Of a DNA stretch of 64,000 nt, positions 7,672 to 32,921 are shown in pieces; within the stretch, counting starts at the first letter, position 1; each line of letters opens with the position of its first letter. A model generated the notes under the pieces. That model worked only from the letters and a program-made list of their open reading frames with translations, searched no databases and was not told the origin of the DNA. The stretch is from Rhizomicrobium sp. (GTDB taxonomy: Bacteria; Pseudomonadota; Alphaproteobacteria; Micropepsales; Micropepsaceae): contig JBBCGJ010000001.1 in the NCBI GenBank assembly GCA_037200985.1, forward strand, positions 1,588,756 through 1,652,755, read 5' to 3'. A program made the position numbers and the translations under genes.

Positions 7672-8830
7672 ATTGCAGCGCTTGCGCGAGGTCGGCGATC
7701 AAATCGTCGGCGTCTTCGATGCCGACGGACAGGCGCACCAGTTCGTCGGAGATGCCGATGCGGGCGCGCTGTTCCGCCGGGATCGAGGCGTGGGTCATGA
7801 TCGCGGGATGCTCGATCAGGCTTTCGACGCCGCCGAGGCTTTCGGCCAGGGTGAAAAGCCGGGTGCGTTCGAGGACGCGCTTGGTCGCGGCGAGGCCGCC
7901 CTTGACGAAGAAGCTCACGATGCCGCCGAAGGCGCGCATCTGCGCTTTCGCGAGCGCGTGCTGCGGATGGGATTCCAGGCCGGGATAGATCACGCGCGAG
8001 ACCTTCGGGTGCGTCTCCAGCCAGGCGGCGATCTTCAGCGCATTGGCGCAGTGGCGCTCCATGCGCAAGGCGAGCGTCTTGAGACCGCGCAGCGCGAGGA
8101 AGCTGTCGAACGGGCCGGCGATGCTGCCGATGGCGTTGTGCAGGAAGCGCAGACGGGCGGTGAGGTCGGCGTCCCTGGTCACGACGCAGCCGCCGACGAT
8201 GTCGGAATGGCCGTTCAGATATTTGGTCGTGGAGTGCATCACGATGTCGAAGCCGTGCTCCAGCGGGCGCTGGACATAGGGGCTGGCAAAGGTGTTGTCG
8301 GCGGCGGCGAGCAGATAGCGCTTCTTCGCCAGCGCCGCGATGGCCGAGAGGTCGGCGAGGCGCAGCAGCGGATTGGTCGGGGTCTCGACCCAGATCATCC
8401 TTGTGTTGGGCTTGATCGCGGCCTCGATGGCGGCGAGATCGGAGAGATCGACGAAGCTGGCCTCCAGGCCGGCGGAGCGCTTGCGCACCCTGTCGAACAG
8501 CCGGAATGAGCCGCCATAGAGATCGTCGCTTGCGATGACATGGGCGCCGCTGTCGAGCAGTTCCAGCACCGTGGAGATCGCGGCCAAGCCGGAAGCGAAA
8601 GCGAAGCCGTCGGCGCCGCTTTCGAGGTCGGCGATGCAGCGCTCGAACGCCATGCGGGTGGGGTTCTGGCTGCGCGAATATTCGTAGCCCTTGTGGACGC
8701 CGGGACTTTCCTGCGCGTAGGTCGAGGTCGCGTAGATCGGCACCATCACCGCGCCGGTCGAGGGATCGTGATGCTGCCCCGCATGGATCGTCCGTGTCGA
8801 GAACGCCAGGCGGTTCTTCTGTTCGCTCAT
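7670..8830 (-). CDS. cystathionine gamma-lyase/beta-lyase-type PLP enzyme
   Basis: 386 residues of the Cys/Met metabolism PLP family (fold type I). Motifs are 'YEYSRSQNPTR' near residue 50, 'FASGLAAISTVLELLDSG', 'ETPTNPLL', 'ADNTFASP' and the PLP lysine in 'HSTTKYLNGHSD'. It lies 11 bases downstream of a cystathionine beta-synthase gene, so cystathionine gamma-lyase (cystathionine to cysteine, 2-oxobutyrate and ammonia) is the most likely role. Sequence alone does not separate gamma-lyase, beta-lyase and gamma-synthase here. Confidence 0.88.
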   Translation of the reverse strand: MSEQKNRLAFSTRTIHAGQHHDPSTGAVMVPIYATSTYAQESPGVHKGYEYSRSQNPTRMAFERCIADLESGADGFAFASGLAAISTVLELLDSGAHVIASDDLYGGSFRLFDRVRKRSAGLEASFVDLSDLAAIEAAIKPNTRMIWVETPTNPLLRLADLSAIAALAKKRYLLAAADNTFASPYVQRPLEHGFDIVMHSTTKYLNGHSDIVGGCVVTRDADLTARLRFLHNAIGSIAGPFDSFLALRGLKTLALRMERHCANALKIAAWLETHPKVSRVIYPGLESHPQHALAKAQMRAFGGIVSFFVKGGLAATKRVLERTRLFTLAESLGGVESLIEHPAIMTHASIPAEQRARIGISDELVRLSVGIEDADDLIADLAQALQ

Positions 8831-17058: not shown

Positions 17059-17139
17059 CGTCCGAAAAACTCAATAAAACCAGGCATTTCTTCAATCCGA
17101 TTGGTCGTCTCTGGTCGTCGAAATTCGTTGGCATCGGCA

Positions 17140-17173
17140 GAAAAACCGGGTATCGAACCGGGTATCGATACCC
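17140..17173 (+). repeat. left-end paired motif, candidate integrase arm sites
   Basis: GAAAAACCGGGTATC, then GAACCGGGTATC. The second copy forms a perfect 14-base palindrome, GGGTATCGATACCC (17160-17173). Nearly the same double motif appears at 54172-54200 inside the right end in the same orientation. Position just before the integrase start suggests a role in recombination, in autoregulation of int, or both. Confidence 0.65.
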
Positions 17174-17190
17174 CGTTTGTTCTGACGCCA

Positions 17191-18453
17191 ATGCTACTTA
17201 CAAACGCTAAAGTGCATAACGCAAAACCGGGTAGCAGCCCGGTGAAACTGCGCGACTCTAACGGCCTCTTTCTGGAGGTCCGCCCGTCCGGCGCGAAGCT
17301 CTGGCGTTATCGGTACGAGATCGGCGGCAAGGAGAATGTCTTTGCCATCGGCGAATTCTTTTCCGACAGCAAAAGACCCGGTCACGTTTCGCTCGAAGCT
17401 GCCCGGAAAGCTCGGGATGAAGCACGGGAGCTTGTCCGGAAGGGAATGCATCCTGCCCATTCCCGGCAGACCCGGCTTCGGGATCAGATTGACCAGAACA
17501 AAAATACCTTCAAAGTCGTGGCCATCGAATGGATGGACCGAAAGTCGTCGAGCTGGAGCGAAGGGTACGCCAAACAGATTCGTCATGTTTTTGACACCGA
17601 CGTGTTTCCTTACATCGGCGCTCTCCCCGTCTCGGGCATCAGCGCCGCTCAGATCCTGGAAGTTATGCAGCGCGTTGAAGCAAGAGGCGCCAATACCTTT
17701 GCCCACCTCATCCGCCAGTGGTGTTCAGCTGTCTTTCGGTACGCCGTTGCGACGCTAAGGGCAGAGCACGACCCTGCATCGCCGCTGCGCGGCGCGATCG
17801 TTCGTAAGAGGCCGAAACACAGTCGAGCGCTATCGAAGCAAGAATTGCTAGCGCTCTTCACTCGACTCCACAGCTATCGTGGCGATCCTGGGACCAAGTT
17901 CGGGATGCGTCTCATGTTGCTGACGTTCGTGCGGACCATAGAATTGCGCGCCGCCAAATGGGTGGAGTTCGACTTCGAGGCGGCAGAGTGGCGAATACCG
18001 GCCATCCGAATGAAGATGAAGGAAGAGCATATCGTGCCGCTTTCTCGCCAGGCCTTGAGCTTGCTCCGAGAATTGAAGCTTCAGACCGGATCAAACCAAT
18101 ATCTTTTTCCGAACCGCAGACGATCGAATGCCTACATCACGGCAACCACCATTAATCGGGCGCTTGAGCGGATGGGATTTCTTGGGGAAGGCACAATTGG
18201 CTTTTCCGGGCACGGCTTCCGTTCCACGGCTTCAACGATGCTAAACGAAGCCGGTCTTCGCCCGGACATCATCGAACGCCAGATGGATCATCAGGAGCGT
18301 AATCAAGTGCGTGCGAGCTACAATCATGCGAGCTACCTCAGGGAGCGCCGGTCGATGATGCAAGCTTGGGCCGACATGATCGACGACATGCTGGCTCCCA
18401 GACACGTCGTGGGCGTGATCTCGCAAAGAAGAATCCAGCAAACCTCGCCTTGA
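17191..18453 (+). CDS. int: P4-type tyrosine recombinase (integrase)
   Basis: Catalyses site-specific integration and excision of the island. 420 residues from ATG 17191. The DUF4102 arm-binding domain comes first ('LTNAKVHNAKPGSSPVKLRD', 'GLFLEVRPSGAKLWRYRYEI'), then a core-binding SAM-like domain (about 100-190), then the catalytic domain. Active-site residues are recognisable: R in 'LTFVRTIELRAAKW', HxxR in 'FSGHGFRSTASTML', and a late H with the Tyr nucleophile in 'MDHQERNQVRASYNHASYL'. There is no clear ribosome site at 17191; a TTG at 17101 is in frame but would place the arm motifs inside the gene. It points away from attL, so the host trpG promoter may read into it. Confidence 0.92.
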   Translation: MLLTNAKVHNAKPGSSPVKLRDSNGLFLEVRPSGAKLWRYRYEIGGKENVFAIGEFFSDSKRPGHVSLEAARKARDEARELVRKGMHPAHSRQTRLRDQIDQNKNTFKVVAIEWMDRKSSSWSEGYAKQIRHVFDTDVFPYIGALPVSGISAAQILEVMQRVEARGANTFAHLIRQWCSAVFRYAVATLRAEHDPASPLRGAIVRKRPKHSRALSKQELLALFTRLHSYRGDPGTKFGMRLMLLTFVRTIELRAAKWVEFDFEAAEWRIPAIRMKMKEEHIVPLSRQALSLLRELKLQTGSNQYLFPNRRRSNAYITATTINRALERMGFLGEGTIGFSGHGFRSTASTMLNEAGLRPDIIERQMDHQERNQVRASYNHASYLRERRSMMQAWADMIDDMLAPRHVVGVISQRRIQQTSP

Positions 18454-19009: not shown

Positions 19010-21592
19010 TCACCATCTCTTGGTTATTGATATGCTGAACGTCCGCCCCAGTGGGTTTGCGTTAACCGGATCATAATTTATGCCGGCCGCGTTGAAGACG
19101 TAGGGCGGCGCACTATCAAAAACATTTGCAACGCTGATGTTGAGGCGCGTTCCATCGAGGAACGCCGCCTTAGGAATATCCTGGAATGCATACGAGGCAC
19201 TAAGGTCAATTGTGGTCCATGATCCGACGGGACAGCTATTTTGGCAGCTCGGATCGGTCGGATTTCGTTCTGAGCCCGTATAGTTCAAACGAGCATTCGC
19301 CGACCACGAGTCCTTGAACCATCCCACGTTGATCTTTCCCCGCAACCGAGGCGGGGAATAAACGATACCGGCGCCAGGAGCCGCAGTCGCGCTTGGTGTG
19401 ATCATTTCTTGATACGCAAGGAAGTACGTCGCATCTCCGGCAATTCTGAATTGGCCGATGGTTGAATCGATTTGGTAATGGGTATCGAGGTTCAAACCAC
19501 TAAGTTGAACGACAGCCGCGTTCACGAACCCGAGGTTTGCGATCGCTTTAATTGTCGATGGCGCGCAGGACGACGCATAGCAAGAGTTTCCGCCGCTGGC
19601 TGCATCAACCGCCAATTGGGAATTGATTTGGGCCGCGGTCGGATTGGTGTTCACAAAATTCCCCAATTGCCCGTCAAGCACATCGGAAAATGCGAAATCG
19701 CTTTCCAGAAACTTTACGACATTCCGGTAATCGATATTGAAGTACGATGCGTCAAACGCAAAACCCGGAACCTTACTCGGAGTAATGGTGGCGCCAGCCG
19801 CAAATGTCGTAGCGGTCTCGGGACGCAAATTGGGGTTTGCCTGGCTGTAATATTCAAGCGCGTTTCCCAAACCAGGATCGGCCGGATTGGCCGGCGCAAC
19901 AAATCCGTAAACTGCAGGGAAGCCGTCGAGCTGGAATAGCGTCGGAGCCTTGAATGACGTCGAATAGCTGCCGTGAAAAGAAACTTCGGCGACAGGCGTC
20001 CATTTTACCGTCACTTTCGGATCGGTTGTGGAGCCGAAATCAGAATAATGATCATAGCGAAGCGCTGCATCTATACTGAGCTGCTGGACCAATGGTATTG
20101 CATTGTTCTCGCCGACCAGTGGGATGAATAACTCCCCGTAGGCAGAATATATCTGACGGCTGACATTCGAATGATCGCTCAAGTTATCGTTCAGCGAAAA
20201 TGACTCGGACCGCTCACTCGCTCCTACGGCGAGCTTCACGTCTCCGCCTGGTAGCGAAATGACGGTGCCGTCCGCGTCCAGTTCGAACGAGTTTTCGGCG
20301 TAATGGTACTTGATATCTACAACCAAAGAGAACGATGGGATGGAGTCTGCGTAAGAATCCTGTTCTGTTCCAAATTCGCCGAACAGTGAAAGCTTCCAAT
20401 CGGAAATTGGAGTATAGTCGAGTTCAGCGCTACCCGCGTATTGGGTATTGCGCCCAGATACTGTTTGAACAAAACCGAGATTGTTGCTCGCCGAATAAGG
20501 CCGATCAGAAAATATTCCAGAGGCGGAAAATTGCAGTTGGTCGGCCAGCTCTTGATTTACCGCAGCGTAAACGCTCGATGTCTGCTGTCGAGGGAGCAGA
20601 TAGTTTGGCGAAAGGGAGCCGCTGGTAAACGGCCGAGCCGATGCGAGAAGAGGCTTTTGATCCTCAAAATCATAGTTGGCAACGATATTGCCCGTGCCCC
20701 AATCGAAACCTCCCAGAGCATACCCGCCCAGGTCTGGCTGCTTGCCATCGGCAATGTTGTAGATATGCGCCCCAGTTTCAATTCCATCAAAGTCCTTCTT
20801 TGTAATGATGTTCACTACACCTGCCACGGCGTCGGAGCCGTAAACGGCCGACGCCCCGTCTTCAAGAATTTCGACGTGATCAATAGCGCTAACGGGTATG
20901 CCCGAGATGTCGGTAGAAGACCCTTCCGCAGTCGACGGTAAGCGACGACCATTCAGCAGAACAAGCGTGTCGTCCGAGCCCAAGCTCAGCAGATTTACAC
21001 CTGAAGCATATCCGTAGTTGTTGAGCGCTCCGTTTCCAAATCCGAAGACGCTATTCGACTCCGTAGAAGCACCAGCCTTTGAATTCGATGGAAGTTGCTC
21101 CAAGACCTCCGAGAGAGTCGTGTAGCCCTGATCGATCATGTCATTTGATGTGATGGTGGTGGTGGGGGTTAACGTCTCCACGTTGTGGATGTGGCTTCCC
21201 GTCACTGTCACTGTTTCTACAGCGGCATTGGGATTACCCGCCCCTTCATTTGAGGCGGCTCCGACTTTTTTTGAGCGGACCATCATTACGCCGGCCGAAT
21301 TTGTCTCGACTTGCAGATCGGTTCCAGCGAGCAAGACTGTGAGGGCCCGCGCTGCTGTATAACGGCCATGTAGACCTTTCGTCGCCCGGCCGTTGGTTGC
21401 ATCCTCCGAGAAAACGATTTGCTGGGAGGAGGCCCTGGAGAAGTCCGTCAGCGCCTGGCCCAACGACTCGGCGGGAATATCGAACTGGTATGTCTGATCG
21501 GCAGCTTGTGCAGCGCCGCCCAATCCCAGCATGGCCAATCCCACCAGCGCGGACGAAAGCAACAACGCGCTACGGCGCGAACCAATCAACAT
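19010..21592 (-). CDS. TonB-dependent receptor with STN signalling domain (copy 1)
   Basis: 860 residues from ATG 21592, which follows a strong GGGGG ribosome site; a longer frame upstream lacks one. Signal peptide 'LLLSSALVGLAMLGLGGAAQA', STN domain (about 35-105, 'FDIPAESLGQALTDFSRASS') that talks to FecR, plug ('TDISGIPVSAIDHVEILEDG', 'SDAVAGVVNIIT'), then a 22-strand barrel ending in aromatic 'TKRW'. Outer-membrane importer of an unknown ligand. The first 170 or so residues are nearly identical to receptor copy 2, while the barrels differ, which implies different ligands but shared signalling. Confidence 0.92.
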   Translation of the reverse strand: MLIGSRRSALLLSSALVGLAMLGLGGAAQAADQTYQFDIPAESLGQALTDFSRASSQQIVFSEDATNGRATKGLHGRYTAARALTVLLAGTDLQVETNSAGVMMVRSKKVGAASNEGAGNPNAAVETVTVTGSHIHNVETLTPTTTITSNDMIDQGYTTLSEVLEQLPSNSKAGASTESNSVFGFGNGALNNYGYASGVNLLSLGSDDTLVLLNGRRLPSTAEGSSTDISGIPVSAIDHVEILEDGASAVYGSDAVAGVVNIITKKDFDGIETGAHIYNIADGKQPDLGGYALGGFDWGTGNIVANYDFEDQKPLLASARPFTSGSLSPNYLLPRQQTSSVYAAVNQELADQLQFSASGIFSDRPYSASNNLGFVQTVSGRNTQYAGSAELDYTPISDWKLSLFGEFGTEQDSYADSIPSFSLVVDIKYHYAENSFELDADGTVISLPGGDVKLAVGASERSESFSLNDNLSDHSNVSRQIYSAYGELFIPLVGENNAIPLVQQLSIDAALRYDHYSDFGSTTDPKVTVKWTPVAEVSFHGSYSTSFKAPTLFQLDGFPAVYGFVAPANPADPGLGNALEYYSQANPNLRPETATTFAAGATITPSKVPGFAFDASYFNIDYRNVVKFLESDFAFSDVLDGQLGNFVNTNPTAAQINSQLAVDAASGGNSCYASSCAPSTIKAIANLGFVNAAVVQLSGLNLDTHYQIDSTIGQFRIAGDATYFLAYQEMITPSATAAPGAGIVYSPPRLRGKINVGWFKDSWSANARLNYTGSERNPTDPSCQNSCPVGSWTTIDLSASYAFQDIPKAAFLDGTRLNISVANVFDSAPPYVFNAAGINYDPVNANPLGRTFSISITKRW

Positions 21593-21717
21593 GCGAGCCC
21601 CCTCAGCATGGGAGCCTTTCCGGAATGGAATAGCTGCTCCCGAGAGGATAAACGCAACGCCGAAACATTTCCGCAGCGAATGAGTCAAAAAAATGTAAAA
21701 GAAGCCAGTACTGTTGA
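21198..21717 (-). repeat. direct repeat copy A (5' part of receptor gene)
   Basis: About 520 bases nearly identical to 26432-26936. Covers the signal peptide, STN domain and the untranslated leader. Homology continues into the fecR-derived fragment at 21719-21812, so the duplicated unit ran from the fecR 3' end into the receptor. Confidence 0.85.
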
Positions 21718-21718
21718 C

Positions 21719-21812
21719 CTAAGAGCGCTTCTGCAAGGTGATGGTATCGTCGCTATCGGTCGTCGCTTGAACCGGAAAATAGCCCGTAATCGCGCTGACA
21801 AACGATCCAGCA
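21719..21812 (-). pseudogene. fecR 3'-end remnant
   Basis: Read on the minus strand this gives 'GSFVSAITGYFPVQATTDSD' and then DTITLQKRS with a stop at 21719-21721. That is almost exactly the last 30 residues of the intact FecR encoded at 26953-27966. The rest of the gene is absent. It marks the left boundary of a duplication that copied the fecR end plus the start of the receptor gene to a second place downstream in the operon. Confidence 0.85.
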
Positions 21813-21960
21813 TCGGCACAATGCGTCGCCATCCTTGGCGTTCCGACGCGTTAAGGGTCACATTCACACTTCGGTTACGGCACTTACCACGTTCGACGTA
21901 TGAGGATGATCAGCTCCGCCCGTGAATATACAGTGCGCCTCCTCTTATCGAAGAGCTCAT

Positions 21961-24144
21961 TCAATGAATTGGATTAGACTTGTTCGCGTTAGGCGCGGCC
22001 ATCCACCTATCAATCCAACTGATCGTCCTGACAATACTGTCCACGATGTTCGCCGGCTTCGCGAACCAATGCCCTTCATCGTAAACGACTAGCTGAGAGG
22101 GTACTCTGAAGTGCTCATATTGCGCATACAACTGTTCCCCAACGGTGGCCGCCAAACTTTGCGCGCCAAATAGCAGAAGCGTCGGAGTGCGAACGTTTTG
22201 AGGATGAAACCCGGGGGACTCATCGATCAAGCGCTTGAACTCGGCCGCCGAGGCTGGATCCTCAAAGCCATAAAGATCCCTGGAGAGAATCTGCCCAACG
22301 CTACCCGATGGATAGTAAGGAGCGTAAAGATAGTTCGATAGGTCTGCCAAATGCCCCTCGTGAACGATCGCCGCCTTGAACATCGTTGATTGTGTAAGTG
22401 CGTACTCTGTTAGATAACCGCCATACGAGGTACCAGCTACAGCAAGCCGGTTTGGATCGGCAATTCCCTTACGAACAATCATATTGATGCCGTCAAGGGC
22501 GTCATTTAGCGGGAGTCGCGCATAGCTATGGTCGGCACGGATACCCGCCTCCAATCGATCACCATAACCGTCTCGTCCCCGAGTGTTAGGAATGAGAACG
22601 GCATACCCCGCAGCGGCCATTGCAAGTGTCATGGTCGAGCCCTCAAATCTCATAAAGCCCCGCTCTACCATACTTGGACCACCCTCGAGCCAAAGCACTG
22701 TGGCCAGATTAGCATTTGACGGCGCATTCACGGGCTCGACCAACAGCCCGTGAATTACAAACTCACCATCACGGCTCTTCCAGCTGATCTCTTGGCTGCG
22801 AACCTTCGCCGCAAGGTCCGTCAAATCTCGTCCAACAAACGTAAGCCGTCGAGCTATTCCCTGTGGGACGCTGTCGTGATCCAAATCCGTGACATACACA
22901 TCGGACGGCTGCGCAAAGTAACTGCGCGCGAAGGCCATGACGCGACCGTTTGAACTAAATGACCTTGTCAAGTCGTCTGAAAGAGGACCGCTTTCATCAA
23001 TCGGCGAAGGCAATACCACTGTCGACTTTGAGAAAACGTCAATTCGAGACAACCGAGTCGTCATATCACTTCTACTTGACCAAATGATCGATCGGGAATC
23101 GGCGGACCAGCGGACAGCGCTACCGCGCGGCGCGTCGTGCAGATAGAAGACTGTCTGCTTGCGCACGTCGTAGATCGCTGGCCGTTTCTCAATGAACCAA
23201 TCGGGCTTCCCCTCTTCGGAGGAGAAGGCAATCATACTCCCGTCGGGCGACCAAATCGGTTCGCTATTGATTCCCGCTAGCTCAGCAAATGGCTTTAATG
23301 TTTTGCTGCGAGTGTCCAGAATCGCAAGCGAGACACTATCACCCTGGCGCCTTGGATCGCGGTTTAGACACACGACCAGACTACGGCTGTCGGGTGACCA
23401 ATCCATGCCAGCCGTGACATCATTTAGATAGGGCGCAACTGGTTGGGGACCAGTCTTTTCTGCTGGCAACAGATGAGTGATGGCGTTCGTACGGACATCG
23501 TAAATTTCGAGCGTGTACCGGTCAGCCCTCCGGAGATCCCACTCTTCCCCTGTCAATCCTCCACTCCAGCTGGATTGGTCAACGTTGTTTCTTGTGATGA
23601 ACGCTATTCGACGCGAGTCTGGCGACCATTTGAATGTAAACGGCTGCCGCGCCGTTGAGTTTTCAAGTTTGCCCGTAATCGTACGCCGTCTAAACTCGAT
23701 CAGCTTTCCGTTTGAGAAACGAAATAGAACTAAATTCGAACCTAGTTGCGCTGCCAGCAGCGCGCCGTCGGGACTCCAACGAGGCTGAGCAATACCATTG
23801 GGCAAGGACACCGCCTCTGAGCCGCCACGAACACTCTTAAGAAAAAGTGCCGTTCGAATATCATTCTTGGAGAGGTCAGGCTCCTGCACACTGTAGATCA
23901 CCCATTGCCCATTAGGAGACAGTTGAACCTCGCCAACCCCGCCATTCAAGTAGCCTGAGCCGGCGATCCGCGTGCCGGCAATCAAGCGTGCAATATTTGC
24001 AATTTCGTCGGTACGAGAAGGCGAGGCCATTGAACAATGGGAAACCAGCACGAAACAGAGAGCTAGACCTGTTGCGCCAAAGCGTCGAACCGCGCTGAAA
24101 AGTACTTTCGCACACTCGGGCTTGCACAGAAGTGGAATACGCAT
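21961..24144 (-). CDS. S9-family (prolyl-oligopeptidase-like) peptidase, secreted; candidate lasso-peptide isopeptidase
   Basis: 727 residues from ATG 24144, after GGGGAGG. N-terminal signal peptide ending near 'SHCSMAS', a beta-propeller of TolB/WD40-like repeats ('LSPNGQWVIYSV', 'WSPDSRRIAFIT', 'IWSPDGSMIAFSS'), then an alpha/beta-hydrolase domain. The nucleophile is Ser573 in 'AGTSYGGYLT' and the base His692 in 'DEGHWF'. The usual acid position in 'TLLLFGAQSLAAT' is Ser663 instead of Asp. It lies between two TonB receptors in a FecI/FecR operon, as lasso-peptide isopeptidases do. It probably cleaves an imported peptide in the periplasm. Confidence 0.85.
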   Translation of the reverse strand: MRIPLLCKPECAKVLFSAVRRFGATGLALCFVLVSHCSMASPSRTDEIANIARLIAGTRIAGSGYLNGGVGEVQLSPNGQWVIYSVQEPDLSKNDIRTALFLKSVRGGSEAVSLPNGIAQPRWSPDGALLAAQLGSNLVLFRFSNGKLIEFRRRTITGKLENSTARQPFTFKWSPDSRRIAFITRNNVDQSSWSGGLTGEEWDLRRADRYTLEIYDVRTNAITHLLPAEKTGPQPVAPYLNDVTAGMDWSPDSRSLVVCLNRDPRRQGDSVSLAILDTRSKTLKPFAELAGINSEPIWSPDGSMIAFSSEEGKPDWFIEKRPAIYDVRKQTVFYLHDAPRGSAVRWSADSRSIIWSSRSDMTTRLSRIDVFSKSTVVLPSPIDESGPLSDDLTRSFSSNGRVMAFARSYFAQPSDVYVTDLDHDSVPQGIARRLTFVGRDLTDLAAKVRSQEISWKSRDGEFVIHGLLVEPVNAPSNANLATVLWLEGGPSMVERGFMRFEGSTMTLAMAAAGYAVLIPNTRGRDGYGDRLEAGIRADHSYARLPLNDALDGINMIVRKGIADPNRLAVAGTSYGGYLTEYALTQSTMFKAAIVHEGHLADLSNYLYAPYYPSGSVGQILSRDLYGFEDPASAAEFKRLIDESPGFHPQNVRTPTLLLFGAQSLAATVGEQLYAQYEHFRVPSQLVVYDEGHWFAKPANIVDSIVRTISWIDRWMAAPNANKSNPIH

Positions 24145-24237
24145 GGCACGCCTCCCCAACAATCACGGCAGTTACGATTTACCGATGCCTCGGCACGCGA
24201 AATCAGACTGCCGCTGGCCGGCAGTCTGATCCAATCC

Positions 24238-26826
24238 TCAGAATTTTTTCGACAACGTGAACGAAAATGCTCGGCCTAACGGATCAGCATTGATCGGATC
24301 GAAGTTCTGTCCAGTGCCGTTGCCATAGACATACGGAGGGCTCTCATTGAATAAATTGATGACATCAAGACTAAGTCTCACTCCAGAGGACAGCGAGTGC
24401 GCATCGTCCGCCGCGAGATTGTAGGAAATGCCAGCATCGAAGGTTACGTACTCGGATACCGCGCATCCTTGGATGCCCGCGCAGCTAGTGTCAGATGGAT
24501 TATGATAACCCCCCACATAATTTATCCTTCCATGGGCGGCCCATTCGTCTAGATCCCATCCAAAGTCCATCTTTGCCCTTAGGCGAACGGGACGATATGG
24601 CGTATCCAAACTCGTATATGGCGTGGCCTGCGGCGTAATTCGGGTTTCATAACTGAGGAAATATGAAATCGCACCACTAGCGTAGAAATGACCGGTGTCG
24701 ACATTTAGATCATACCTCACCGCAGCATCGAGGCCTTTTGGGTGGGACGTTGCAGCGTTTTGAAAACCCAGCTGCGCAATCGCGGTCAGTTCAGATGGGG
24801 TCCATGGGCCGGTTGTGTAGTTATAGACTTGGCGTCCAGGAGCATTAAGCGCCGCATTAATTTGCGCTTGCGTGGGATGAAGATTCACCAGAGGCCCCAG
24901 TTGGGCCGCATCCTCAATCACATTGTATAAGAAACCCTCTTGGTCAATCAGTACAATCTTGTCCTTATATGAAATGTCGAAATACGACAGATCGAGCTTA
25001 AGCCCCGGCACGTCCTCTGGCTTGTAAGTCGTACCGAATTCAAATGAATTGGCCCGCTCGGGACGAAGGTAAGGGCCCGCGGTATCGAGGCCAAGCGTTA
25101 AGCTCTCACCAGTCGGCGAATTCGGATTTGGGGTTGGTAGAATGTAGGCATAGTTACGTGCGTTGGGATTCAACAAGTAAAGCGGAGGCGCACGAAAGGA
25201 CGATCCATAACTTCCATGGAGCGATAAACCGTCATTGACCTCGAGGACCGCAGAGTATTTGGGATTGAACGTTCCGCCAAAATCGCTGTAGTGGTCGTAC
25301 CTTCCTGCAACGTCGATGTTGAAAGACTTTAGGCCGAGAATAGTCGATCCGTTTCCGAGTATGGGGAGAAACAGCTCGCCGTAAGCAGACTGTGTCTCGC
25401 GCGCATAACTTGTTATGACACTAAGAGCCGCGAGATTGCTTGCCCCGGTTAGAACACCGCCGACAGCTAGCTTGACGTCACCACTCGCAAGCGCAAACAG
25501 GTCTCCATCAGCGCGGAATTCACCGGACCATTGCTCGTTCCTAAAGACGTCATGATAAAGGATACCTCCGAATAAATCCGAATCGTTATCTCGTCCGCGC
25601 GCGAACTGCCCCGAAAGAGAGATATGCCAGTCGGCCGGCAGAGCGTAGTCGAGTGATGCGTCCGCCACGAGGTTCGATCCGCTGTCGCCGTACCGGTAGC
25701 TGTAGGCCGCGTAGGCCTGGTTCGTGAATATGTGTTTGTCCGAGAAGACCACATCTGCTGAAAGAGTCAGATCCGAGGTTATTGATTGTCGAACCGCGCC
25801 GAAGATTGACGATGAATCGCTACTTGGAAGCAGGTTTTCTGGAGCCACCGCGGTCGCCGTAAAGGATCGGCTGGTCGCGTATAGAGGATTGTCCTTCTCG
25901 TGATCGTAGTTGAGAACTAAGTCGCCGCTACCCCAATCATATCCACCGAGCAGATAGCCGCCAAAATTCGGAGCCTTCCCATCGGCAACAGACGTTATCC
26001 TCGCTCCGGCTTCAAAACCGTCGTAGTCTGTGCGCGTGATTATATTGACGACACCCGCGACGGCGTCGGCGCCATAGGTGGCGGACGCCCCATCAGGAAG
26101 GATTTCCGCGCGGTCGATGGCACTTACAGGGATGCCGGAAATATCGGTCGTGAATCCGTACGATGAACCAGGCAAAGGATGGCCGTTCAGAAGGACCAGT
26201 GTCGCGCCCTGGCCTAGGCCCCGAAGATTGACGCCCGACGCAAATCCGGCGTTATAGGATGCACCCTCCCCAAAGCCTGATGTGGGATTCGAAGCGGGCG
26301 TGACGCCAATTTTTGACGCCATCGGCAGTGCATTTAGCGCGTCGTCCAGGCGCGTGTATCCCTGTGTCTGCAGGTCCTGGTTTGTAAGCGTGATAAGCGG
26401 GCTAAGCGGCTCGACGTTACGAAGATGCGTTCCCGTCACTGTCACTGTTTCTACAGCGGTATTGGGATTACCCGCCCCTTCATTTGAGGCGGCTCCGGAG
26501 TTTTTTGAGCGGACCATCATTACGCCGGCCGAATTTGTCTCGACTTGCAGATCGGTTCCAGCGAGCAAGACTGCGAGGGCCTGCGCTGCTGTGTAACGGC
26601 CATGTAGACCTTTCGTCGCCCGGCCGTTGGTCGCGTCCTCCGAGAAAACGATCTGCTGCGAAGAGGCTCGTGAGAAATCGGTGAGTGCCTGGCCCAACGA
26701 CTCGGCGGGAATATCGAACTGGTATGTCTGATCGGCAGCTTGTGCAGAGCCGCCCAATCCCAGCATAGCCAATCCCACCAGCGCGGACGAAAGCAACAAC
26801 GCGCTACGGCGCGAGCCAATCAACAT
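24238..26826 (-). CDS. TonB-dependent receptor with STN signalling domain (copy 2)
   Basis: 862 residues from ATG 26826, same leader and ribosome site as copy 1. Signal peptide and STN domain match copy 1 closely; plug ('TDISGIPVSAIDRAEILPDG', 'ADAVAGVVNIITR') and barrel diverge. Ends in 'FTLSKKF', a typical outer-membrane C-terminal aromatic. Directly downstream of fecR, so this is probably the original receptor of the operon and copy 1 the derived one. A cysteine pair near 'SDTSCAGIQGCAVSE' lies in a barrel loop and has a counterpart in copy 1. Confidence 0.92.
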   Translation of the reverse strand: MLIGSRRSALLLSSALVGLAMLGLGGSAQAADQTYQFDIPAESLGQALTDFSRASSQQIVFSEDATNGRATKGLHGRYTAAQALAVLLAGTDLQVETNSAGVMMVRSKNSGAASNEGAGNPNTAVETVTVTGTHLRNVEPLSPLITLTNQDLQTQGYTRLDDALNALPMASKIGVTPASNPTSGFGEGASYNAGFASGVNLRGLGQGATLVLLNGHPLPGSSYGFTTDISGIPVSAIDRAEILPDGASATYGADAVAGVVNIITRTDYDGFEAGARITSVADGKAPNFGGYLLGGYDWGSGDLVLNYDHEKDNPLYATSRSFTATAVAPENLLPSSDSSSIFGAVRQSITSDLTLSADVVFSDKHIFTNQAYAAYSYRYGDSGSNLVADASLDYALPADWHISLSGQFARGRDNDSDLFGGILYHDVFRNEQWSGEFRADGDLFALASGDVKLAVGGVLTGASNLAALSVITSYARETQSAYGELFLPILGNGSTILGLKSFNIDVAGRYDHYSDFGGTFNPKYSAVLEVNDGLSLHGSYGSSFRAPPLYLLNPNARNYAYILPTPNPNSPTGESLTLGLDTAGPYLRPERANSFEFGTTYKPEDVPGLKLDLSYFDISYKDKIVLIDQEGFLYNVIEDAAQLGPLVNLHPTQAQINAALNAPGRQVYNYTTGPWTPSELTAIAQLGFQNAATSHPKGLDAAVRYDLNVDTGHFYASGAISYFLSYETRITPQATPYTSLDTPYRPVRLRAKMDFGWDLDEWAAHGRINYVGGYHNPSDTSCAGIQGCAVSEYVTFDAGISYNLAADDAHSLSSGVRLSLDVINLFNESPPYVYGNGTGQNFDPINADPLGRAFSFTLSKKF

Positions 26827-26936
26827 GCGAGCCCCCTCAGCATGGGAGCCCATCCGGAATGGCGTGGCTGCTCCCGCCAAGATAAACGCAACGCCGAAAC
26901 ACTTCCGCAGCGAACGAGTCAAAAAAATGTAAAACT
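26432..26936 (-). repeat. direct repeat copy B (5' part of receptor gene)
   Basis: Counterpart of 21198-21717, same orientation, about 5.2 kb apart. The two copies could recombine and delete the peptidase and one receptor, or exchange sequence by gene conversion. Confidence 0.85.
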
Positions 26937-26952
26937 GTTCGTCCGCCGCCTC

Positions 26953-27966
26953 TCACGATCGCTTCTGCAACGTGATGGTGTCGTTTGCGTCGGTTGTCGC
27001 CTGGACAGGAAAATAACCCGTAATCGCGCTGACAAACGATCCGACATCGCCGGCATTGAAAACACCACTGATCCGGATCGACGCTGCCGCAGGATCAACA
27101 GCGATGGGATGATCTGTGTATCGGTTCACCCGCTCCACCGCCTCCCCTAGCGTCTCGCCACGAAATACCAGGTGCCCGGCTTCCCACGCTGTCGCGTCGG
27201 TCAAGTCCGCGGTTGACACCGCCGGTTTGATATCCGGTGCGGCGACGAGTTGCTGACCGGCAACAAGTGATACCGTTCGAACCGGGACCGGCGGCGCGGC
27301 GAGCGCCGGCGCCGCCGTATCCTTTATAAGCACGTGACCCTGAATGAGCGTCACGAGCACGGTCGATCCCAAGCGCTCGACATTGAACGACGTTCCCACC
27401 GCCACAACCGTCTTCGTCCCCGCCGTAACAGTGAAGGGACGCGTTACGTCGTGCGCAACGTCGAAGCGCGCCCTGCCCTTGTTCAGGACGATTGTTCGCG
27501 CCGCTTTGGAGTATCGGACATCAACCTCGCTGTCGGAATCGAGGGAGATGCGCGAGCCATCGGGCAGTGCCACCAAACGGCGTTCGCCAATCTCTGTCGC
27601 ATAGGAGTCCGGCTGCTGGCTGTAAACGTATAAGGCGCCGCCGCCCAACAGTGCGATCACCATCAGCGCGGCAGCAACACGCGTGACAGCGCGTGCAGTC
27701 AGCCAGCGTTTGAATCCCGCATTGCGCAAATGCGTAAGCGCGGAACGGCGCATGTCCAGAATGTTCGGCGTGGCGCCGAAGTCGTCGAGTGCCGTCATCG
27801 TACTTTCGACCGCCTTGAAAGCCCGGCAGTTTGTCGGATCGGCGACCCATTCCAGAAACTCCGCCGATATCTCGACCGCCGGATCCTCCTGAAGCCGCTT
27901 CCACCAAGCGGCTGCTATCTCCAGCCTCTCCTGGTCCTGCGAAGGCAAATTTCCGAAGATGCTCAT
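26953..27966 (-). CDS. fecR: FecR-family anti-sigma/signal transducer
   Basis: 337 residues. N-terminal cytoplasmic anti-sigma part (DUF4880-like, 'AAAWWKRLQEDPAVEISAEF' and 'EFLEWVADPTNCRAF'), one membrane helix near residue 100 ('VAAALMVIALLGGGALYVY'), and a periplasmic FecR domain ('GERRLVALPDGSRISLDSDS', 'GTSFNVERLGSTVLVTLIQG'). The C-terminal region 'GVFNAGDVGSFVSAITGYFP' should contact the receptor STN domain. It overlaps fecI by four bases and precedes the receptors, so it relays the receptor state to FecI. An additional copy of its 3' end lies at 21719-21812. Confidence 0.9.
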   Translation of the reverse strand: MSIFGNLPSQDQERLEIAAAWWKRLQEDPAVEISAEFLEWVADPTNCRAFKAVESTMTALDDFGATPNILDMRRSALTHLRNAGFKRWLTARAVTRVAAALMVIALLGGGALYVYSQQPDSYATEIGERRLVALPDGSRISLDSDSEVDVRYSKAARTIVLNKGRARFDVAHDVTRPFTVTAGTKTVVAVGTSFNVERLGSTVLVTLIQGHVLIKDTAAPALAAPPVPVRTVSLVAGQQLVAAPDIKPAVSTADLTDATAWEAGHLVFRGETLGEAVERVNRYTDHPIAVDPAAASIRISGVFNAGDVGSFVSAITGYFPVQATTDANDTITLQKRS

Positions 27967-28514
27967 GATCGGAATGCCCGAGCGGACAGATGTGCCACCG
28001 CGCGCAGCACGTGTTTTTCGACGGCGCTGATGGAAATGCCATGCAGATTGGCGATATCGCGATGATGGACATTCTCCATGCGCGACAGCAAGAAGATTTC
28101 GCGGGTGCGTTCGCTCAGCTCTGCCAACGCGTCCTCGATATCCCTAAGCGCTTCCTTGCCCGCTAAAACGCGCTCTGGCGTGCGATCCTCAACAAGAATT
28201 GTGGGCGTCGCGACACTATCTGACTGATCTGATAGCGTGCGATGCGCGTTCATGTGCCGCGAGGTCCGGTGGCGATGCCAATCGTTCAGCGCACTTGCCG
28301 CGATCTTGAAGACGTAGGCTTCGATGGTCTCGCCGCCGTTCTGGTCGGGACGGCGCGTGAGGCGGACGAAGACTTCCTGCGTCAGATCCTCGGCATCGCC
28401 CCTGTCGCGAACTCGCCGCAGAAAATATGCCGTTAGGGGCGCACGAAAGCGCCGATCAAGCCCCGGCCAAGCCTGATCCTTCTGCTTGTCGCTGTCGTGT
28501 TGTCGATCCGACAT
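27963..28514 (-). CDS. fecI: FecI-family ECF sigma factor
   Basis: 183 residues. Sigma-2 region ('FLRRVRDRGDAEDLTQEVFVRL') and sigma-4 region ('LSERTREIFLLSRMENVHHR' followed by 'DIANLHGISISAVEKHVLRA') are both complete. It should direct RNA polymerase to the receptor operon when FecR is triggered by ligand-loaded receptor. First gene of fecI-fecR-TBDR2-S9-TBDR1. An IS630 element lies immediately upstream (right end of its promoter region), which may have changed or removed its native regulation. Confidence 0.92.
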   Translation of the reverse strand: MSDRQHDSDKQKDQAWPGLDRRFRAPLTAYFLRRVRDRGDAEDLTQEVFVRLTRRPDQNGGETIEAYVFKIAASALNDWHRHRTSRHMNAHRTLSDQSDSVATPTILVEDRTPERVLAGKEALRDIEDALAELSERTREIFLLSRMENVHHRDIANLHGISISAVEKHVLRAVAHLSARAFRS

Positions 28515-28538: not shown

Positions 28539-29700
28539 CCAACGGCCTTAGTTTCTGACTCGTGAGGATTCAACGCGGCCGCTGTCTGTGATTCGCTTTG
28601 CGAGGTGATTCGCGAAGGGGATCGGCGATGGCGATCAAGATTTTGCGTTCGGAACACAGTGCTTCGGATTTGCGGCGGGAGGCGGCCAAGACGCGGCACG
28701 CCGATCAGGCTCGCCGGTTGCTGGCGCTGGCACTGGTGCTGGAAGGCACGTCTCGCACGGACGCGGCAACGGCGTGCGGCATGGATCGCCAGACGCTGCG
28801 CGACTGGGTGCATCGCTATAATGCGTCAGGCATCGATGGTCTTGTCGACCGCAAGGCTCCAGGCCCAACGCCCCGGCTGACGGAGCAGCAGGAGGCTGAA
28901 CTTGTCCAGATTGTGGAGCAAGGTCCCGATCTTGCGAACGACGGTATGGTGCGCTGGCGCCGCGTCGATCTTCGCGACGTGATCGCCGCGCGCTTTGGCG
29001 TTGCGCTTCACGAGCGCACCGTGGGCAAGGTGCTGGATCGTCTCAACTTCAGCCATATGTCGGTTCGCCCGCGCCATCCCAAAGCAGACGCCGATGCCCA
29101 AGAGGCGTTCAAAAAAACTTCGCGCAGCTTGTCGATCGCGCCTTGCCGGATGCCGCCAAAACCAAGCCGGTCGAGATCTGGTTCCAGGATGAAGCCCGGA
29201 TCGGCCAGAAGGGAAGCTTGACCAGAATGTGGGCGCGGCGCGGGACACGCCCCACCGCGCCGCGCGATCAGCGCTACAAGTGGGCCTACCTCTTCGGCGC
29301 GGTCTGTCCCGAGCGCGCCTGTGCCGCCGGTCTGGTTCTTCCTTGCGCCAATACCAGGGCGATGACGGCGCACCTCAAGGAGATCAGCCGGGCCGTCAGG
29401 CCAGGCGCCCATGCTGTCCTGGTCATGGACGGCGCTGGCTATCACGAGAAAGCCATCACCCACCTGCCGTCCAACATCTCGCTGCTGACGTTGCCGGCAT
29501 ACGCCCCCGAACTCAACCCGGTCGAGAATGTCTGGCAGTTCCTGCGCCAGAACCATCTCGCAAACCGCGTCTTCAAAGACTACGACGCCATCCTCGATGC
29601 TTGTTGCGACGCTTGGCGAAGCTTCCTCAGAAACCCAGACAATATCGCCTCGATAACCCAAAGATCATGGGCCAAATGTGTCAACCACTGAGGCCGTTGG
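28539..29700 (+). mobile_element. IS630-family insertion sequence
   Basis: Ends CCAACGGCCTTAG and, inverted, CTGAGGCCGTTGG, each flanked by TA as expected for IS630/Tc1-type insertion with TA duplication. It contains a single transposase gene in two frames. It sits only 24 bases upstream of the fecI start codon. Confidence 0.85.
28628..29691 (+). CDS. IS630 transposase, two frames joined by a -1 shift at an A7 run
   Basis: N-terminal helix-turn-helix region ('RTDAATACGMDRQTLRDWVH' then 'RYNASGIDGLVDRKAPG') in one frame; DDE catalytic domain in the next, with Asp in 'IWFQDEARIGQKG', Asp in 'VLVMDGAGYHEKA' and Glu in 'APELNPVENVWQFLRQ'. The frames meet at TTCAAAAAAACTTC near 29108-29120. A -1 slip there gives EAFKKNFAQLVDRALPDAAK, which restores a continuous 354-residue transposase. 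Recoding on A-runs is known in several IS families. A sequencing indel or a real inactivating mutation cannot be excluded. Confidence 0.85.
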
Positions 29701-30845: not shown

Positions 30846-31045
30846 ACGGAATAGAACTTGCGGGTTGCGGCGCTGCGCGGCAGGCCAAGCGCGACATTGG
30901 AAGATTGCCAAGGCCGCACCCAAGGCACACAACCCTGTTCCAGTTCGCGGACGATGCGGTCGGTGACTTCTTCATAGAGGGAAGTCTTAGCGCCAGCGTC
31001 AGGACGGCTCGCGCCGCTGGCTGGCTGCTGGTGGGTCTGGCTCAT
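30846..31045 (-). pseudogene. ardC 5' fragment (antirestriction protein)
   Basis: The start at 31045 follows a perfect AGGAGG. The product begins 'MSQTHQQPASGASRPDAG' and continues 'YEEVTDRIVRELEQGCVPWV' with 'GLPRSAATRKFYS', the N-terminal (DUF1738/ssDNA-binding) part of ArdC-like antirestriction proteins. It breaks off near 30850, where trbI sequence follows out of frame. ArdC normally protects incoming conjugative DNA from host restriction; the metallopeptidase half is gone here. Confidence 0.85.
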
Positions 31046-31425: not shown

Positions 31426-32445
31426 CTATGCGGTGAGGGGCCTGCGGTAGGTTCCGCCTTTGACCAGGATCGCCCAGACGATACGGGCCATTTTGTTGGC
31501 GAGGGCGACGGCGGCGACGAGTGCCGGCCTGCGGCCGAGCAGCGAGAGCAGCCAGGGCGAGGCCTTTTCGGGATCGGTCCGTGCGCGCCGGATCATGGCA
31601 AAGGCACCCATCACGAAGAGGGTCCTCAAGGTCCGGTCGCCGGCCTTGGTGATGCGGCCGAGCCTGGTCTTTCCGCCGGAGGAGTCCTGTTTGGGCGTCA
31701 ACCCGACCCAGGCGGCGAAATCGCGGCCCGAGGCGAAGCGCGAGACATCGCCTGCCAACGCCGTGACCGTGCTGGCGGTGATCGGTCCGACGCCCGGGAT
31801 CGTGCGCAAGCGTTTGCAGGCTTCGTTCGTCTCGGTGTCGGCGGCGATCTTGCGGTCGAGGCCGACGAGGCGCGCCTCGACGGCTCGGATGGCAGCGGCC
31901 ATCATGGCGTAGACATCGCGCGCAAGCTCCGGAATGCGGGCGTCGCCGGCCTGGGCGATCTTGAGGATCTCGTTGGCGCCGCGTTGCCCTTGCGCGGACA
32001 CGATGCCGAACTCGGCCAGACCGGCTCGAAGGGCATTGAGCATGGCGGTACGCTGGCCCACCAGCTGGGTGCGGACCCGATGGACCAATGCCAAAGCCTG
32101 GGCCTGCGGCGTCTTGATCGGCACGAACCGCATGGTCGGCCGCGTCACCGCCTCGCAGATCGCCTCGGCATCGGCGGCGTCGTTCTTCTGCCGCTTCACA
32201 TAAGGCTTCACATAGTGCGCCGGCATCAGCCGCACCTCGTGGCCCAGCGCCGTGAGCTGCCGTGCCCAATGGTGGGCCGTGCCGCACGCTTCGATCCCTA
32301 TCAGGCAGGGCGGGAGCCGCTCGAAGAACGCGAGAACCCGGCTGCGCGCCAGGCGCTGACGAACGACCACGGCGCCGGCGCCATCAACGCCGTGTACCTG
32401 AAACACCGACTTCGCAATATCCAATCCGATCGTGCTAACTTGCAT
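31426..32445 (-). CDS. IS110-family transposase (DEDD recombinase)
   Basis: 339 residues from ATG 32445 after AAGGAG. N-terminal RuvC-like DEDD domain: 'TIGLDIAKSVFQVHGVDGAG' (first Asp), 'CLIGIEACGTAHHWAR' (Glu), 'VKRQKNDAADAEAICEAVTR' (Asp pair). C-terminal transposase_20 domain: 'LRTIPGVGPITASTVTALAG', 'FAAWVGLTPKQDSSGGKTRL' and a serine-containing tail. Frame intact, so the IS may be active. Confidence 0.92.
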   Translation of the reverse strand: MQVSTIGLDIAKSVFQVHGVDGAGAVVVRQRLARSRVLAFFERLPPCLIGIEACGTAHHWARQLTALGHEVRLMPAHYVKPYVKRQKNDAADAEAICEAVTRPTMRFVPIKTPQAQALALVHRVRTQLVGQRTAMLNALRAGLAEFGIVSAQGQRGANEILKIAQAGDARIPELARDVYAMMAAAIRAVEARLVGLDRKIAADTETNEACKRLRTIPGVGPITASTVTALAGDVSRFASGRDFAAWVGLTPKQDSSGGKTRLGRITKAGDRTLRTLFVMGAFAMIRRARTDPEKASPWLLSLLGRRPALVAAVALANKMARIVWAILVKGGTYRRPLTA

Positions 32446-32520
32446 GGGGCGGCTCCTTCCCGTGTGGGTCCTGAAACGGCCACACCTTGGCACATCGATG
32501 TCGTAAGGAGGGGCCGTCCA

Positions 32521-32921
32521 CCCCATCAGCGGAGCACCCGTAGCGCAGCGCAGGGTTGCGCCACCCCGCGGTGGGCCTAGCAGGGAGCGCCGCCCGCCCC
32601 GCGGAGGGGAATTGCACTTGAACAAAGCCGGCGCGCGGCAGCGCGGCGTCCGTAGCAATTGCGCCAGGGGGCGACGCGCGAAGCGCCGAGACGGCGACTT
32701 TGCCGGCTCGGTTCACGAGCACCCGGCCGCGCGGCGTTAGCCGCGCGGGGCGTCCGAATCCCGCTTGGCCATCACGGGCACCTACACATGGCTGGAACGC
32801 AGAGTACGTCAGGCACCCAGCCGGGCGGATGTAACACCCCGGCACTTTCGGCTCCTATAGTCTGAGGGCCGCGTGCCTTCGTCCGACGCCAATAGCGGTG
32901 TCACAAACCTTGGAGACGAAA
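32521..32921. other. gene-free GC-rich region with hairpins
   Basis: About 400 bases with no supported gene. It contains a perfect 9-bp hairpin with a four-base loop, CCGCGCGGC-GTTA-GCCGCGCGG, near 32733-32754, and several smaller GC palindromes. It lies between the IS110 element and a GHKL ATPase gene; the latter's promoter is presumably in the last 100 bases, with GGAGACGAAA as ribosome site just before 32922. Confidence 0.5.

Follow-up and report, generated by a model that had tools for sequence, protein, structure and literature searches.

How did two TonB-dependent receptor genes of Rhizomicrobium sp. come to share a nearly identical signalling front while carrying very different barrels, and can the single FecR regulator encoded beside them serve both? 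The genes lie in a 64,000-nucleotide (nt) stretch of DNA (GenBank assembly GCA_037200985.1, contig JBBCGJ010000001.1, positions 1,588,756 to 1,652,755; hereafter the window), which is part of a single-contig genome of 4.64 Mb. Over the 133 codons from the ATG, which encode the signal peptide and the STN signalling domain, receptor copies 1 and 2 share 95% protein identity, whereas their plug and barrel (718 codons) are 44% identical. A first-pass annotation of the window attributed this pattern to copying of the fecR tail together with the receptor front. We favor another explanation with moderate confidence: the best fit is a tandem operon that collapsed and whose surviving receptor had its signalling front re-matched by recombination.

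The genes of the system are all on the minus strand. An extracytoplasmic function (ECF) sigma factor gene of the FecI type (27963–28514; Pfam Sigma70_r4_2 5.7e-14, r2 4.3e-9) adjoins the gene for the FecR regulator (26953–27966; Pfam FecR 1.1e-20), both products scoring above the Pfam cut-off as in a FecIRA system. This FecR is the only match in its own genome at E ≤ 1e-40. Receptor copy 2 follows, with a front (26428–26826) composed of a signal peptide, an STN domain (1.2e-8), a linker and a TonB-box-like region, and with a plug and barrel (24238–26427; 1e-16 and 4.3e-27). Next is a gene for a peptidase of the S9 (prolyl oligopeptidase) family (21961–24144; Pfam Peptidase_S9 2.1e-21, and alignments), for which the ATG start was picked by eye. 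Copy 1 has a front of the same composition (21194–21592), near-identical to that of copy 2 except for one patch, and a plug and barrel (19010–21193) that are open throughout. In both receptors STN, plug and barrel each score above the Pfam cut-off, as in a FecIRA receptor. The true starts are probably ATG 21592 for copy 1 and ATG 26826 for copy 2, because in the relative Alphaproteobacteria bacterium REEB230 (JAGWNK010000044.1; G048 in our genome listings) the TTG further upstream does not share the frame of STN, and that frame offers an ATG in the corresponding position (open reading frames 7994–8437 and 8091 onward). With these starts, the gap of about 126 nt between fecR and receptor is therefore probably a non-coding portion of that block which both copies have in common.

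Ahead of copy 1 lies the relic of a fecR gene. FecR residues 304–337 match positions 21823–21722 (minus strand) at 82%, and the last 31 codons and the stop (21814–21719, 96 nt) are open in frame, confirming the in-frame 3′ remnant recognized in the first-pass annotation. Its derivation from the resident tail was not supported: 78 of its 96 nt are identical to that tail, no closer than the tail of REEB230 (81%), and the changes are mostly silent, with 10 of the 28 codons that encode the same residue being different (36%). For scale, the resident fecR and that of REEB230 differ at 150 of 256 such codons over the whole gene and at 15 of 28 in the tail alone. Relic and resident tail differ at 16 of 93 nt, yet their translations differ at only 3 of 31 positions. 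When 13 random changes were simulated, a mean of 8.7 residues changed and three or fewer residue changes without a stop arose with P = 0.00035; with 10 random changes the value was P = 0.006. The few residue changes among many nucleotide changes therefore indicate that the copy 1 tail evolved within a working fecR. In a three-sequence comparison with REEB230 as the third member, 13 of the 18 tail differences fell on the copy 1 branch, 2 fell on the copy 2 branch and 3 were unresolved, and the copy 1 tail may branch outside the resident and REEB230 tails. A recent copy that decayed neutrally would not yield 36% silent change in the tail beside 3–5% in the STN domain. A second fecR, since lost except for its end, is a better reading of the relic than a copy of the resident gene.

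A second relic, which the first-pass annotation did not mention, lies on the other side of copy 1. It corresponds to the 3′ end of another S9 peptidase gene (18964–18818, minus strand), detected within the window by tblastn (43% over 49 amino acids, E = 5e-5) and by a nucleotide match of 75% over 69 nt. Because the fecR and peptidase relics lie on either side of copy 1, as the genes of a complete operon would, we read the locus as a collapsed operon.

Each receptor is also preceded by a conserved promoter-like element (26880–26933 for copy 2 and 21646–21699 for copy 1, both minus strand), recognized by its conserved columns and by a genome-wide pattern search. When copy 1, copy 2, REEB230 and a further relative, G046, were compared, 44 of the 54 columns were invariant. 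Of the following 54 columns, 22 were invariant; the counts for the fecR tail and for the signal peptide with the STN domain were 58 of 96 and 230 of 408, respectively. A 22-base pattern, allowing up to three mismatches, occurs twice in the own genome, once ahead of each receptor; it occurs once in G046 and twice in REEB230 (the second time with 3 mismatches), and the reversed control had no occurrence in any of the seven genomes searched. We infer that the element may be the promoter recognized by the sigma factor.

The front of copy 1 proved to be a patchwork of near-identical and old-divergence tracts rather than one copied piece. Downstream of the tail, identity between the copies is 100/126 nt in the spacer, 87/90 in the signal peptide, 99/111 in the first part of the STN domain and 188/195 in its second part with the linker. 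Same-residue codons differ at 2 of 43 positions in codons 1–46 and at 2 of 61 in codons 65–133 (3–5%), and at 10 of 18 (56%) in codons 47–64, a patch (21401–21454, minus strand) with old silent divergence and zero residue changes. Both the patch (Fisher 2.4e-7) and the tail (Fisher 2.4e-5) differ from the homogenized part. Across a 618-site block, the observed clustering of differences was reached in 0 of 5000 shuffles for all sites and likewise for third positions, and the longest run over all sites gave P = 0.012. The 520 bases after the tail, described earlier as nearly identical, are not uniformly so. Near-identical tracts flanked by old silent divergence are the pattern of gene conversion, which would be the process at work here; the donor allele itself was not seen.

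These features would fit the following history. An ancestral tandem pair of operons, each with sigma factor, FecR, receptor and S9 peptidase genes, would have existed, the second presumably in full. The second operon would then have lost its sigma factor gene, all but about the last 31 codons of fecR and nearly all of the peptidase gene, and its receptor would have survived, still equipped with a promoter-like element, a signal peptide and an STN domain of its own. Later recombination, either gene conversion in the cell or exchange with the allele of a close relative, may have homogenized the signal peptide and STN segments, so that copy 1 could still signal via the FecR that was left. Uncollapsed tandem operons do occur in the genus, which fits the collapse: genome G028 has four tandem sigma–FecR–receptor–S9 peptidase operons in 49 kb (G028:C1:645000–694000, loci L069–L071), each with its own FecR, and the STN domains of these four units are only 48–70% identical.

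Several observations weigh against this history. No strain with a complete second operon was found, and the 22-base pattern was not found in four of the seven genomes searched (G016, G019, G028 and G038) even though relatives of the module are present in them. For the tail, REEB230 cannot be relied on as an outgroup, as copy 2 is equally close to REEB230 (81%) and to copy 1. Divergence is lower in the tail (10/28) than in the barrels (209/309; Fisher P = 0.0014); the two give no single age, more than one age layer is present, and conversion may have affected part of the tail itself. Both the tail (96 nt) and the patch (54 nt) are short, and the longest-run test on third positions was not significant (P = 0.25). 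Finally, no closer relative of the copy 1 front than copy 2 was found in the sample, and conversion within the genome and import from a relative are therefore indistinguishable.

Import is the alternative that survives best, even though we consider it unlikely. On this view, a related allele comprising fecR tail, promoter, STN domain and barrel 1 would have arrived on a mobile element of the same family and recombined beside the resident operon, and the patchwork would reflect exchange between the alleles of different cells. The module may indeed be mobile, given the 3′ part of trbI and the integrase gene nearby; the latter (17101–18453, plus strand; Pfam and open reading frame survey) comes after the peptidase relic. 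The copy 1 tail also has a Ser-Asp that is shared with G046, as opposed to Ala-Asn in copy 2 and REEB230. On the other hand, stretches of 96–97% identity between the two copies would most simply reflect exchange within one genome, and sister barrels require shared ancestry under import as well. Moreover, the trb-type genes that lie next to the REEB230 module were matched only in the window among the 20 sources searched (none in the 19 others), so that a mobile setting is not general. The trbI part and two small genes, which we take to encode DUF2274 and DUF736 proteins, are located at 30857–29804 (minus strand) in the order that they also have beside sigma factor and fecR in REEB230, whose conjugation operon is longer. 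Transposase genes are present at 29143–29691 and 31426–32658.

Somewhat less probable still is the proposal of the first-pass annotation that the fecR tail and receptor front were copied ahead of a different plug and barrel, which would make copy 1 a recent chimera with the barrel of a third receptor. The sharp break at the joint between STN and plug speaks for such an event. Same-residue codon pairs use different codons at 14 of 122 positions before the break and at 209 of 309 after it, and the maximum chi-square at the break was 110.5, whereas 1000 shuffles reached 15.4 at most; the break is not due to chance. Its best position is after codon 132 from the ATG (interval 130–158), just past the sequence VETVTVTG, presumably the TonB box. 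The alignment thus located the breakpoint and bore out the unequal divergence of front and barrel that had been noted earlier. In addition, two close relatives in the genus (L040 and L066) join the same module to unrelated plugs or barrels at the same joint, so such joins occur there.

The relationships of the barrels argue against a chimera. In a tree of 20 plug–barrel sequences, copies 1 and 2 are sisters with 100/100 support and terminal branch lengths of 0.72 and 0.88 (in changes per column). These 20 were hand-picked from 30, the omitted rows (L040, L066, L068 and L073–L079) being unrelated, incomplete or partly matching in the barrel (partial matches include L075, with 171 bits to copy 1, and L073, with 84 bits), and x_L099 is a long branch in the tree. 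The two barrels are also mutual best matches among 96 genomes of the order (44%, 579 bits), with the runner-up at 35% and 360 bits (at most 11 candidates scored per genome). The copy 1 plug–barrel query found matches in 5 of these 96 genomes at E ≤ 1e-85, own included, and in 2 of 385 genomes of a class sample at 1e-98, one of them its own (at most 2 candidates scored per genome). Among plasmids, 28 records matched at 1e-40, the best 12 of them at most 31.8% identical and the other 16 below 60%. Among the matches listed from the order, the class sample and the plasmids, no barrel exceeded the 44% of copy 2 and no better donor appeared. An origin of the copy 1 barrel from a third receptor is not supported in this sample. 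Nor does a chimera agree with a tail that is no plain copy of the resident one and a peptidase relic that also follows copy 1. The plugs and barrels are sister paralogues of old date and presumably bind different ligands.

Simple duplication with relaxed selection on the barrel, which the gene order resembles, can be dismissed, since silent differences rise from 11% before the break to 68% after it and divergence time, not constraint alone, therefore shifts there.

If the second operon did collapse, the remaining FecR probably serves both receptors. The first-pass suggestion that the retained signalling domain works with the same FecR is plausible. Either ligand, once bound or imported, would lead the matching STN domain to act on the single FecR; the ECF sigma factor would then turn on both receptor promoters, and the shared peptidase would cut the imported peptide. 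We propose tentatively, at just under an even chance, that operon collapse created a two-input surface-signalling circuit in which one FecR and one sigma factor serve two ancient, differently tuned receptors with STN domains kept alike by gene conversion, the module being portable in the genus as well.

The FecI–FecR–FecA system and PupA/PupB of Pseudomonas share with the window an ECF sigma factor, a FecR and a TonB-dependent receptor whose N-terminus bears a signalling domain. As the engineered PupBA chimera shows, exchanging just the N-terminal piece is sufficient to redirect induction (Koster et al., 1994, described in an excerpt of PMC9249621). Unlike the PupA/PupB chimeras, the arrangement in the window is natural: next to a single FecR, two barrels that diverged long ago carry a common signalling front. 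The exchangeability of STN domains is known from laboratory chimeras, and a natural counterpart can be read here in the sequence, joint included. A receptor apparently without its own FecR carries a front near-identical to that of its neighbor, and whether two receptors can share a single FecR could be tested directly at this locus. For pyoverdine receptor genes, recombination has been published. No description of natural STN exchange between receptors was found in the literature searched by title and start of abstract, which is weak evidence since most subscription papers were outside its reach.

Relatives of the module were found across the genus, with FecR matches at E ≤ 1e-40 in 16 of 69 genomes, own included. 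At 1e-75 only the own genome matched in the class sample of 385 (at most 5 candidates scored per genome), and the 979 plasmid records with FecR relatives were all below 60% identity. A FecR tree of 26 rows grouped the window, REEB230, G046 and G016 at 99/99; the distant rows include long branches, and the pairing of the window with REEB230 is weak (95/40). Compared with the window (copy 2), identity is 78% for FecR and 77% for STN in REEB230, and 70% and 72%, respectively, in G046. Their receptors do not genuinely match the copy 2 plug–barrel, at 18 and 23 bits versus 520–543 bits between copies 1 and 2, with the REEB230 value covering the plug start only as its contig stops after 64 plug residues. 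It is conceivable, though we would put it slightly short of evenly balanced, that the ECF–FecR–STN module acts in the genus as a portable adaptor, joined time and again to unrelated receptors close to the TonB box, alongside the two-input collapsed-operon circuit with its conversion-matched STN domains. Between STN and plug, G016 (L073:8763–11987) and G029 (L079:6743–9583, minus strand) have a second in-frame stretch that by eye resembles a signal peptide, as though the signalling module had captured a whole receptor gene. The STN frame of G016 is preceded by GTG or TTG, never by ATG.

The placement of sigma factor, FecR and TonB-dependent receptor genes beside an S9 peptidase gene is also that of lasso peptide isopeptidase systems. 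Clusters of this type (astexin, benenodin and sphingopyxin) combine sigma/anti-sigma factors, a TonB receptor and an isopeptidase of the S9 family (architecture as given in an excerpt of PMC9266682). They differ from the window in two respects. With two lasso B and two lasso C proteins as tblastn queries (E ≤ 1e-4), no match was obtained in the 64 kb of the window; a precursor was not searched for. Furthermore, identification of the peptidase as an AtxE2 isopeptidase was rejected, as it scored 97.1 bits against a cut-off of 400 for model NF033523, on which two plasmid AtxE relatives scored 703 and 730. With the Dpp5 model the peptidase scored 132.4 bits, under the cut-off of 900. Its best relatives of solved structure are other S9 peptidases (1.2e-23), with AtxE2 at only 1e-5. 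It retains the catalytic Ser (GTSYGG) and His, and an acid is not evident at the aligned triad position (GAQSLA), where the relative at L121 is similar.

Given the score below the AtxE2 cut-off, our claim stops at import and cleavage: as far as the evidence goes, the system would import and cut a peptide. That the ligand is specifically a lasso peptide is possible, and we lean somewhat against it. The top three inspected of the 28 plasmid records that match barrel 1 all have sigma–FecR–receptor–isopeptidase genes beside lasso C and B genes; two of these genes, for the isopeptidase on pCHQ1 and for lasso B on the Sphingomonas panacis plasmid, are missing from the gene tables and were found by tblastn. 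Two other loci of the own genome (L116 and L117) have genes of the same kinds. Elsewhere in this genome, a Transglut_core3 gene (G000:C1:1955144–1955824; L115:7145–7825, minus strand) matches lasso_biosyn_B2 with 84 bits (cut-off 33). It is near an asparagine-synthetase-like or cyclase-like gene that is below the cut-off (273 versus 525), a precursor again not having been searched for, and could be a source of a self-made ligand. In G046, a lasso-cyclase-like gene (L066:16649–18565; 344 bits, under the cut-off of 525) is located beside the same module with a different receptor.

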